From NCBI RefSeq assembly GCF_000429525.1, contig NZ_AUCA01000016.1, positions 1 to 64,000 of the forward strand: a stretch of DNA of 64,000 nt, read 5' to 3'. The notes below the pieces were generated by a model. That model did no database searches, was not told where the DNA came from, and worked only from the letters and a program-made list of their open reading frames with translations. Both the position numbers and the translations under genes were made by a program. The stretch comes from Alicyclobacillus contaminans DSM 17975 (GTDB lineage: Bacteria > Bacillota > Bacilli > Alicyclobacillales > Alicyclobacillaceae). Shown piece after piece: positions 21,384-64,000 of the stretch. Numbering within the stretch: the stretch's first letter is position 1; every line of letters starts with the position of its first letter.

Positions 21384-22538
21384 TCACGAACGCCCCTGTT
21401 GCACGACGTCCGTTATCACCGGTACGCGCTTCGCCAACAGTTGGTGATAGTGCTGGAGCAGCTGCTCGGTCGGCCGCGCCCAATCCACATTCTGGACCAA
21501 GATTCGCGCCCGCTCCCGCACCTGAGAACGACAATCCTCATCGAACAAAACGGACTGGATGGCGCGGATCATGTCTTCGGGATGGTCAGGATTGAAGATC
21601 ACGCCGGCGGCACCATCTTCGAGCACCTCCCGCGTGGGAGGGCTGTCGGCTGCCATCACCGGCAACCCGGCTGCCATCGCCTCAAACAACACCAGCCCGA
21701 GCGTTTCAGTGGTCGAGGGAAACACAAAGCCATCCGCCGACGCGTACGCGGCAGCGAGCTCGGGCCCGTGCAAATACCCGGTGAAGACGGTCGGCGTACC
21801 GGCAAACACCGTTTCCAGTTGCTTTCGATGCGGCCCATCTCCGACGATGGCCAGTCGGACATTTGAAAATTTATCCAAGCAAGGACGCAGCCGCTCAATC
21901 CCTTTTTCGGGCGCCAACCTGCCCACATACAGCAGCACCTTGTCCCCATCGCCGGTGGCCCCGAACCGACGCCGCAAATCCGGCGACGATGTGGCGTTCG
22001 CGTATAGGTTGAGATCCACGCCTCGTTCCCACAGCCCGACATTGCGAAAACCGTGGGCCACCAGCTCTTGAACCATGGCCCGAGAGGTGGCCAAATTGAT
22101 GCTCGCACGATTGTGCAAAGTCCGGAAATACCACCAGAGCGCCGGCTCGAGCCACGCCAGTCCGTAATGACGCGCATATGTCGGCACGTTCGTATGATAG
22201 GAAGCCATCAGCGGAATGCCGAGGCGGCGGGCGTAATAAATCCCGCCGAGACCGAGAAACGCAGGATTGACCACGTGTACCAAGTCCGGTTTGAACGCCA
22301 TCAGTTGCCGCCGAATGTAACGTCTGGGCAACGCGAACCGTTTCTCCGGATAGAGCGTGAATCGAAACGATGGGACGCCGATGACCGTTGCGGACTCGTA
22401 GGTTTCCGGACCGCCTTCCGGAGCAAACAGCAATACCTCGTGTCCTGCTGTTTTCAGGTGCTTCAACGTTGCACATAGACGTGTCACTATGCCGTCCGTC
22501 CCGGGAAGAAACGTTTCCGTGAACATGGCAATCCGCAT
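21384..22538 (-). CDS. sqdX: glycosyltransferase family 4, SqdX/SQD2-type sulfoquinovosyltransferase
   Basis: The 384-aa GT-B enzyme should transfer sulfoquinovose from UDP-sulfoquinovose to diacylglycerol, giving sulfolipid (SQDG). The N-terminus MRIAMFTETFLPGTDGIVTRL, the block LVHVVNPAFLGLGGIYYAR and ASYHTN are characteristic of SqdX. The C-terminal domain has YVGRLAPEKGIERL and the donor-site motif PSTTETLGLVLFEAMAAG. ATG at 22538 follows GGAGGT, which overlaps the sqdB stop. A GT4 acting on another donor is possible, but the adjacent sqdB makes SQDG synthesis much more likely. Confidence 0.9.
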   Translation of the reverse strand: MRIAMFTETFLPGTDGIVTRLCATLKHLKTAGHEVLLFAPEGGPETYESATVIGVPSFRFTLYPEKRFALPRRYIRRQLMAFKPDLVHVVNPAFLGLGGIYYARRLGIPLMASYHTNVPTYARHYGLAWLEPALWWYFRTLHNRASINLATSRAMVQELVAHGFRNVGLWERGVDLNLYANATSSPDLRRRFGATGDGDKVLLYVGRLAPEKGIERLRPCLDKFSNVRLAIVGDGPHRKQLETVFAGTPTVFTGYLHGPELAAAYASADGFVFPSTTETLGLVLFEAMAAGLPVMAADSPPTREVLEDGAAGVIFNPDHPEDMIRAIQSVLFDEDCRSQVRERARILVQNVDWARPTEQLLQHYHQLLAKRVPVITDVVQQGRS

Positions 22539-22546
22539 CGTTCGAC

Positions 22547-23707
<1,161 letters not shown>

Positions 23708-61632: not shown

Positions 61633-62574
61633 TCATTCCACGGGTTCCAGGTCGGTCCTCAACATGGTCAGCAGCCGCTGCATGTCGTCCGGAACTTCCG
61701 CCGAGAACTCCAGTCGTTGTCCACTCCGAGGATGCGTGAAGCCCAACGCCATCGCGTGCAGTGCCTGTCCCTCAATATCGAGGGTCCGCCGTCTGCCGTA
61801 GACGGGATCTCCAGCCAAAGGGTGGCCGATGTACGCCATGTGCACGCGGATTTGGTGGGTCCTGCCGGTTTCCAGCCGGAGCTCCACGTACGTGTAATCC
61901 GCAAACCGCTCCAGCACATGGAAGTGTGTGATCGCCGGTTTACCGCTCTCGTGGACCGCCATGCGCTGACGATGGCGCGGATCGCGACCGATGGGGGCGT
62001 CAATCATGCCTTCGTCGTGCTCCAGCACACCGTGGATGATGGCGCGGTATATGCGGTGCACGCTGTGCTCTTTCAATTGCTCCGCCAACCCGTGGTACGC
62101 CAGGTCCGTCCGCGCGAACATGATCAATCCCGACGTGTCCTTGTCAATCCGGTGCACCACGCCGGGCCGCATGCTGCCGCCGAGCGAGGACAGTGAGATG
62201 TTTTGCTCGTACAGTCCGTTGACCACGGTCCCCCGCAGATGCCCTGCGGCTGGATGCACAACAATTCCGCGCGGTTTGTTCACCACCACCACGTCATCAT
62301 CCAGGTGCACGACATCAAACGGGACCGGGTCCGGCATGATGGTCACCGGTTCCGGATCTGGTACGGTGACGACGTAGGTCTCGCCGGGGGCGACCGGATC
62401 GCTCGCCTTCAGCTTCCGGCGCGGTCCTTCAATGTATCCACCAGCGAGCCATTGTTGAAGTTGGCTGCGAGACACCTCGTATTCGCTGTCCGCCAGCGCG
62501 TCGGTCAACCATCTGTCCAGCCGCTGCCCGGCGTCACCGGGCTCCACAGTGAAGGTTTCAGAAATCCAGGTCAC
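61633..62574 (-). CDS. RluD-family 23S rRNA/RluA-type pseudouridine synthase (YlyB)
   Basis: The 313-aa pseudouridine synthase has an N-terminal S4 RNA-binding domain (LDRWLTDAL through VSRSQLQQWLAGG, about 18-48) and catalytic motif HRIDKDTSGLIMFA with the essential Asp. GRTHQIRVHMAYIGHPLAGD follows. In B. subtilis the gene is next to lspA and the pyr operon, as here. It overlaps the lspA stop by four bases. The exact RNA site cannot be told from sequence. Confidence 0.94.
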   Translation of the reverse strand: MTWISETFTVEPGDAGQRLDRWLTDALADSEYEVSRSQLQQWLAGGYIEGPRRKLKASDPVAPGETYVVTVPDPEPVTIMPDPVPFDVVHLDDDVVVVNKPRGIVVHPAAGHLRGTVVNGLYEQNISLSSLGGSMRPGVVHRIDKDTSGLIMFARTDLAYHGLAEQLKEHSVHRIYRAIIHGVLEHDEGMIDAPIGRDPRHRQRMAVHESGKPAITHFHVLERFADYTYVELRLETGRTHQIRVHMAYIGHPLAGDPVYGRRRTLDIEGQALHAMALGFTHPRSGQRLEFSAEVPDDMQRLLTMLRTDLEPVE

Positions 62575-63044
62575 GGCTCCACGTCCTCCGCTTCTTGTTG
62601 CTTTTTCACCGCGTTGTCACTGCGGAAGCTGCGCCACAAGAGAATCAGAACACCGGCGTCAATCGACACATCCGCCAGGTTGAAGATAGGGAAATTGATG
62701 ATCTGGAGATACACGTAATCGACGACCGTCCCGGCAAACACACGGTCGCACAGGTTTCCGAGCGCTCCGCCCAGCACCAGAGCCAACCCCACCGCCATCC
62801 ACCGTTTTGGTCGATATCGACGCTCCAACCACACCACCACAGCCACCACCAGCAGGGCGATGACAATCAGCAGCCCGTGCGCCCGTGTCAACATTCCCCA
62901 CGCGGCGCCCGGATTGCGAATGTACTCCAGCACCACCACCTGGGGCCAGATGGGAATCACTTCTCCAACGGTCATGTGCGTCTGAACCAGCCATTTGATG
63001 GACTGATCCGCAATCAACACGACAAGCGCCAATATGTACAGCAA
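62571..63044 (-). CDS. lspA: lipoprotein signal peptidase (signal peptidase II)
   Basis: The 157-aa membrane aspartic protease cleaves lipoprotein signal peptides. Four hydrophobic helices are visible, with the catalytic Asp residues in GNLCDRV and FNLADVSIDAG, and NPGAAWGML. TTG at 63044 lies eight bases after GAGAGG and gives MLYILALVVLIADQSIKWLV, aligning with the B. subtilis start; a GTG eight codons upstream has a weak SD. Confidence 0.94.
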   Translation of the reverse strand: MLYILALVVLIADQSIKWLVQTHMTVGEVIPIWPQVVVLEYIRNPGAAWGMLTRAHGLLIVIALLVVAVVVWLERRYRPKRWMAVGLALVLGGALGNLCDRVFAGTVVDYVYLQIINFPIFNLADVSIDAGVLILLWRSFRSDNAVKKQQEAEDVEP

Positions 63045-63093
63045 GACACGCACCTCTCGTTCACTCACTGATCAGAAGACCGTTTGTCCCCAC

Positions 63094-63122: not shown

Positions 63123-63201
63123 CTGACGGGCGGCCTGGCCGGGTGGCCGGTTCCCCGTTCGCCGCATAGGCTAAAGCGATTCAACGGAAGGGACTGAGCG
63201 A

Positions 63202-64000
63202 TGAATGTCCACAGGGGGATTTTTGCACGATTTGCTCACACCACCCTTGGCGGGGCGGCTGGAAAAACCGCGTCTGACGGGAAAGACCATGGTCATTGAT
63301 AAGGGATTGGGGATTCACGCGCTAACCGATTTGCTGGAGACGGCCTCCCCCTACATGGATTGCCTCAAGCTCGGCTTCGGGACGGCGTCGCTGTACCGAG
63401 CTGACATCCTCAAACAAAAGGCCGCCCTCTGCCGACAGTACGGCGTGGATTGTTGTACGGGAGGCACGTTGACCGAAATCGTACTCACGCAAGGTATATT
63501 TCCGGCATTTCTCGGCCGCTGCCGTCAATTTGGTCTGACAGCCATAGAGATCTCGGATGGGACGCTTTCCATTCCTGCATCCATTCGCACGCGTGCCATT
63601 GAAGCGGCAGCCAAACACTTTCTTGTCATCACGGAAGTGGGAAAGAAGCTCGAGGCCTTCCCGGACGCCGGCGAGGCCGCTGCACAAATTCTGACCGACC
63701 TTGAGGCCGGTGCCGCCCTTGTGATTGTGGAAGGACGCGAGAGCGGTGAATGTGCCGGGATTTATGAAGATAGCGGAAAACTCCGGGACGCCATCGTGGA
63801 CCAATTGGCAGCGCACCTCCCCGCATCCGCGCTATCCAAAGTGATGTGGGAAGCCCCGAAGAAGTCGCAACAGACAGCGCTTATCCAGCGGTTTGGAAAT
63901 CAGGTGAATCTGGGAAACATCGCGCCATCCGACGTCCTGTCAGTGGAATGCCTGCGTCGGGGGCTGCGGGCAGACACCCTGACCTGGACGCGCAGCGAAT
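63202..64000 (+). CDS. comA: phosphosulfolactate synthase ComA (YitD), 3' end missing
   Basis: The frame is open from ATG 63202 to the window edge, 266 codons, so only a few residues are probably missing. It follows GGAAGGGA by seven bases. ComA adds sulfite to phosphoenolpyruvate, giving (R)-phosphosulfolactate, the first step to coenzyme M in methanogens and to spore sulfolactate in Bacillus. Shared blocks are TGKTMVIDKG, LKLGFGTASL, FGLTAIEISDGTLSIP, VITEVGKK, LVIVEGRESGECAGIY and the C-terminal LSVECLRRGLRADT. It is divergent from lspA. Neighbouring genes to the right are not visible. Confidence 0.92.

Follow-up and report, generated by a model that had tools for sequence, protein, structure and literature searches.

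The window analysed here is a stretch of 64,000 nucleotides, bases 1–64000 of a 64,999-base contig of Alicyclobacillus contaminans, and its right edge carries a gene of the phosphosulfolactate synthase family, comA. The features relevant to this gene are as follows.

22547–23695, minus strand: UDP-sulfoquinovose synthase-like (SqdB-like) gene; NF041015 match of 475 bits over positions 1–384 of 384, under the cut-off of 575
61633–62574, minus strand: RluA-family pseudouridine synthase gene (rluD-like; TIGR00005); conserved left flank, with cluster c7 at 18 of the 21 group A loci (groups defined below)
62571–63068, minus strand: lspA, signal peptidase II (PF01252); divergent neighbour of comA, with cluster c17 at 15 of the 21 group A loci
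63165–63173, plus strand: CATAGGCTA, matching the sigma-K −10 consensus (CATAnnnTA) in full, upstream of comA
63186–63193, plus strand: GGAAGGGA, probable ribosome-binding site with the comA ATG 11 nt downstream, as judged by reading the sequence
63205–64000, plus strand: complete comA gene of group A, encoding a phosphosulfolactate synthase of 265 aa

The open reading frame (63205–63999, plus strand) has 265 codons, and its TAA stop codon at contig positions 64000–64002 straddles the end of the window, finishing 2 bases beyond it; the whole protein is visible. A previous sequence-only reading had placed a gene at this edge starting at 63202; the gene is present and in fact complete, and its start lies 3 bases further on. 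The same reading proposed a match to phosphosulfolactate synthase over the whole length, and this was confirmed by PF02679 (E 3.8e-84, profile positions 3–243 of 243, 282 bits against a cut-off of 25.2), by the NCBIfam equivalog for phosphosulfolactate synthase, TIGR03849 (296 bits, above the cut-off of 280), and by a predicted fold closest to that of Methanocaldococcus jannaschii ComA. The AlphaFold2 model, made from a 26-sequence alignment, had a pLDDT of 92.1 and a pTM of 0.90. When it was searched with Foldseek, 1qwg ranked first (TM 0.84/0.89) and 1u83 third, consistent with a ComA-type TIM barrel; the second match was a designed nanoparticle whose sequence matches M. jannaschii ComA. PDB sequence matches were likewise to 1qwg and 24fo (about 1e-50) and to 1u83 (8.8e-38), and in phmmer the M. 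jannaschii enzyme (176 bits) scored above B. subtilis YitD (134 bits). The alignment contains 38 invariant columns, all of which the window protein retains, and every one of the eight barrel strands has some of them on it or adjacent to it. None of the strand-end motifs is lost; these serve as a proxy for the PEP- and sulfite-binding residues. In family and fold, the window gene is a complete, ordinary-looking ComA, and we infer that it encodes a working phosphosulfolactate synthase. M. jannaschii ComA joins sulfite to phosphoenolpyruvate in a Mg2+-dependent reaction.

Group A comA genes stand alone on their strand beside lspA and rluD, and the yteA cluster was found in 20 of the 21 group A loci. 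In A. contaminans the yteA-family regulator (TIGR02890) lies past the window on the strand opposite to comA, and the contig beyond the window also carries the start of what we take to be an insertion-sequence gene. By our reading of the sequences, pyrimidine-synthesis genes lie on one side of the locus, and divIVA lies on the other side in relatives. At about 39.5 kb from comA, in agreement with the 40 kb given earlier, the SqdB-like gene forms a separate sulfonate branch unlinked to comA. Its identity as SqdB is likely, its score being below the NF041015 cut-off. Of the two sulfite-adding enzymes previously proposed for this genome, ComA stands and SqdB is likely, and a second ComA had been missed. 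Adjoining the SqdB-like gene is a glycosyltransferase gene (21384–22556), a plausible SqdX-type sulfolipid partner; among NCBIfam models it matches a GlcN-phosphatidylglycerol synthase best, with a score far under the cut-off.

We then looked for the partner enzymes. Profile searches for ComB (PF04029) and the ComC family (PF02615), which were positive in the controls B. subtilis and M. jannaschii, gave no matches at E ≤ 1 in the whole 99.99%-complete A. contaminans genome. The possibility that comB or comC homologues follow just to the right of the window was rejected, because none occurs in the remaining 999 bases of the contig or elsewhere in the genome. In fold, length and strand-end motifs the window ComA is like that of M. 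jannaschii (PDB 1qwg, 24fo; 41% identity in the structural alignment), but the archaeal enzyme has ComB and ComC as partners, whereas A. contaminans has neither. The archaeal coenzyme M pathway uses ComA with ComB–ComE. A route by which ComA feeds coenzyme M, whether of the methanogen or the Xanthobacter type, would begin with this same enzyme; such a role is nevertheless very improbable here in view of the absence of ComB and the ComC family and of the sporulation-type promoter-like elements described below. B. subtilis YitD (1u83) belongs to the same family as the window ComA but to a different group, C, and the B. subtilis spore pathway includes a PF04029 match, which we take to be YitC, in contrast to A. 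contaminans, which is without a ComB/YitC phosphatase.

The second ComA, encoded on contig 21, has 316 residues and is 44% identical to the window ComA over 253 residues; both copies pass the TIGR03849 equivalog cut-off. Within the family, ComA was found in 39 of 41 genomes, and 26 have two or more copies, as counted from search rows. The 67 comA genes of the family were grouped by match score, tree and gene order. Group A, the type of the window gene, is represented in 21 genomes (in G003 the gene appears as two separate matches). Group B is marked by a C-terminal extension and comprises 18 loci, including the second A. contaminans copy; five divergent genes behind the same FolC-like gene were counted with it, giving 23. 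Group C comprises 22 loci and is not found in the A. contaminans genome, and one gene, L080 (G019), was unplaced and left out of the promoter counts. Group A was not borne out as a clean clade by the tree: its midpoint root falls on a fragment of 58 residues (L183), it includes long branches (L078, L102), and 21 of its forks are open, so that groups A–D also rest on match scores and gene order.

Group B proteins depart from most other groups at several positions: in seven of eight aligned sequences S180 is replaced by G or A, and in seven of eight K33 is replaced by T or S (position 33 also varies in group C), while K220 is kept in only two of eight. Loss of residues that most other groups keep, along with the absence of ComB and ComC and the retention of two copies, would fit a drift of one or both paralogues to another PEP-dependent reaction. 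We regard such a change of function as quite unlikely, given that the window ComA keeps K33, S180, K219 and K220 in the alignment and that neither copy falls below the equivalog threshold.

From the upstream regions of the comA loci of the family the pattern AC-N16/17-CATAnnnT[A/G] was read. It resembles sigma-K sites. Since the pattern was defined on these sequences, the family counts are no independent test. The full element lies upstream of 22 of the 23 group B genes, divergent members included. In group A the −10 half is found in 20 of 21 cases and the full element in nine with a spacer of 16–17, or in 17 if a spacer of 18 is allowed; group C genes do not carry the element (0/22). Control genes of the same loci show the full element in 2 of 591 cases and the −10 half in 28 of 591, and in 200 dinucleotide shuffles of the comA upstream regions the maximum was 2 matches to the full element and 4 to the −10 half. 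Upstream of the window comA only the −10 half, CATAGGCTA, is present, the AC of the −35 being absent 12–21 nt upstream of it. For 150-base stretches of the window the expected frequency of a −10-like match is about 2.5%, and the weight of CATAGGCTA derives from the recurrence of the −10 half in orthologues.

An independent test was provided by a named set of 67 loci, nearly all from Paenibacillus, with Moorella and a Bacillota bin. The strict pattern was found at 63 of 66 comA open reading frames against 2 of 974 control genes, although these loci are related to one another and do not represent 66 independent events. With spacers of 16–18 the figures were 63 of 66 and 5 of 974. One locus had no called comA frame, and a fragment of a broken comA (L181) was left out of the count; the three genes without the pattern are those of Moorella (L118), L151 and L155. 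Of 35 further loci from the class sample, 21 of which come from ComB-less genomes, 22 carry the pattern with a spacer of 16–18 (counted by hand). The pattern is absent upstream of comB in four of five YitC–YitD-type loci, including the most B. subtilis-like one; with a match in one of five, YitC-type loci did not validate it, which counts against a sigma-K site. The tentative assignment of the element to sigma-K draws on the sigma-K consensus and on the chiefly sigma-K-dependent control of B. subtilis yitCD. A. contaminans has two genes that score above the curated sigma-K cut-off of 299 (contigs 19 and 5, L184/L185; 329 and 315 bits).

These elements bear on a further possibility, namely that ComA has a housekeeping or stress function, removing sulfite or feeding another sulfonate in growing cells with no link to spores. 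The company of lspA and rluD, with pyrimidine-synthesis genes to one side and divIVA to the other in relatives, is compatible with such a function, as is the lack of a full promoter match at the window comA. However, it would not readily account for the −10 half in nearly all group A orthologues, for the full element in all but one of the second type, or for Paenibacillus comA genes that lie beside spoIIIA and carry the same element, and we consider it unlikely. The earlier suggestion of a spore pathway gains indirect support in that conserved promoter-like elements make a sporulation role for the window ComA likely, the gene probably being switched on in spore formation; the ComB and ComC partners that the pathway would include are absent.

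Among the named genomes scanned, the nearest arrangement is the comA–comB–DUF441 cluster of Paenibacillus and Moorella (39–50% identity). The mostly Paenibacillus set shares the promoter-like element (63/66), whereas Moorella is not among its carriers. These organisms have a single comA, accompanied by comB at 64 of the 67 loci, as opposed to the two unlinked comA genes and no comB of A. contaminans. In the 63 pairs measured, comB starts −46 to 451 bases after comA, and DUF441 occurs in 61 of the 67 loci. In Paenibacillus xerothermodurans (L117) spoIIIAA, AB, AD, AE and AF lie beside comA, and these clusters recur in most of the named loci. In many ComB-less Bacilli outside the family the neighbourhood is MFS–comA–DUF441: for loci that represent 21 of the 27 such genomes, a hand count gave an MFS gene belonging to one cluster in 20 and DUF441 in 19. 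The MFS gene is on the other strand in one of the 20, and one locus (L198) has no intact comA frame. We call this protein YitG-like, as in a B. subtilis-like locus (L225) it occupies the position of yitG; among NCBIfam models the bacillibactin exporter BcbE matches it best, at a score below the cut-off. Within the named set this MFS cluster lies near comA in only 2 of 67 loci (Moorella and L155).

A. contaminans encodes a counterpart of this pair on contig 41, where the gene whose product best matches the MFS protein of Moorella (43% identity and 337 bits, against 63 bits for the runner-up) is followed directly by DUF441, with no comA between them. The full promoter pattern is absent upstream of the pair, only a −10-like match at −113 being present. 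Across the family, DUF441 was found in 13 of 41 genomes, in one of them as a fragment, and in all 11 loci with enough flank the MFS gene immediately precedes it. DUF441 occurs only together with a B-type or divergent B-type comA, in 13 of 23 such genomes versus none of the other 18, two of which lack any ComA, one of these being 62% complete.

Full-length ComB is present in six of the 41 family genomes; ten have matches at E ≤ 0.001, the other four being partial or weak (21–60 bits). The full-length genes occur only where the sole ComA is of group B, with groups A and C missing from all six genomes. Of the four partial or weak matches, three (G006, G026, G032) come from genomes that do have an A- or C-type ComA. 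None of the six full-length genes (L109–L114) lies in the comA loci retrieved or carries the promoter-like element, so their role in those genomes need not be tied to ComA. The idea that a relative's ComB rescues the pathway was rejected, these six genes being apart from comA and the A. contaminans genome having none. As a side observation, L109–L114 sit in other neighbourhoods, where PF04029 may have another role; the upstream coding end of some of them resembles an acyl-CoA dehydrogenase. In 348 genomes of the class, ComA was found in 139 and ComB in 140. A ComB match accompanies ComA in 5 of 25 sampled family genomes (one being the truncated G026 match) versus 87 of 114 outside the family, a comparison in which weak matches such as G149 were scored as present and whose Fisher values are purely descriptive, the genomes being related. 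ComB is thus separable from ComA. Plant HSA32, which acts in heat-stress memory, is a eukaryotic ComA homologue and a PF02679 member without a known ComB partner.

The promoter pattern yielded no phosphatase candidate in A. contaminans, and among those downstream open reading frames that were read by eye, none looked phosphatase-like. Genome-wide the strict pattern occurs at 7 places, fewer than the 12 obtained with a reversed control, and the search for a co-regulated phosphatase by this means was rejected.

The simplest account of these data, and one that we hold to be reasonably probable, is a scattered late-sporulation sulfonate pathway in which the first step is duplicated and the second is no longer carried out by ComB. 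The two comA genes would be transcribed late in sporulation, in the mother cell, by sigma-K, and ComA would add sulfite to phosphoenolpyruvate to give (R)-2-phospho-3-sulfolactate. Phosphosulfolactate would most likely be dephosphorylated to sulfolactate by a phosphatase unrelated to ComB, and the product may be moved by the YitG-like MFS transporter and the DUF441 membrane protein for storage in the spore. A wider scheme is a good deal more speculative, and we think it doubtful: a mother-cell sulfonate programme common to many spore-forming Bacilli, with ComA fixed and ComB repeatedly lost, the MFS and DUF441 proteins effecting transport (compare the passage of dipicolinate into the forespore), ComB-less spores storing either phosphosulfolactate or a compound that a new enzyme derives from it, and the two ComA paralogues raising supply.

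In B. subtilis, sulfolactate is described as making up about 5% of spore dry weight and yitCD as being expressed chiefly under sigma-K, late and in the mother cell (PMC517825). The same source records B. cereus and B. megaterium spores as lacking sulfolactate, indicating that it is no general spore compound (PMC517825). Alicyclobacillus comA has been treated as part of carbon metabolism, and the accessible portion of that article does not discuss spores or comB in connection with the gene (PMC10562698). In the open-access literature on sulfolactate or phosphosulfolactate together with spores or sporulation, no title among the matches listed concerned spore sulfonates of these genera. Should the promoter evidence hold, production of a spore sulfonate may extend to many further Bacilli, among them genera with no listed report, and the missing phosphatase and the recurring MFS–DUF441 pair represent two concrete functions to test.

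Groups B and C also have characteristic neighbours. The FolC-like gene is found in 21 of 23 group B loci, divergent members included; in A. contaminans this ligase (TIGR01499; L004:7110-8501) lies two genes upstream of the B-type comA. A small glyoxalase/VOC gene is present in 21 of 22 group C loci, encoding a protein of about 132 residues (L044:4567-4965 and relatives), and the order ComB–ComA–VOC occurs in L215, L216 and L220. It is possible that the VOC protein is an extra pathway enzyme. In addition, a direct repeat of period 11, TTCAA-N6-TTCA(A), lies upstream of 14 of the 22 group C comA genes (L056 and 13 others) and in none of the 21 group A or 23 group B upstream regions. The repeat is reminiscent of a Pho-type box, and group C comA may answer to phosphate starvation.
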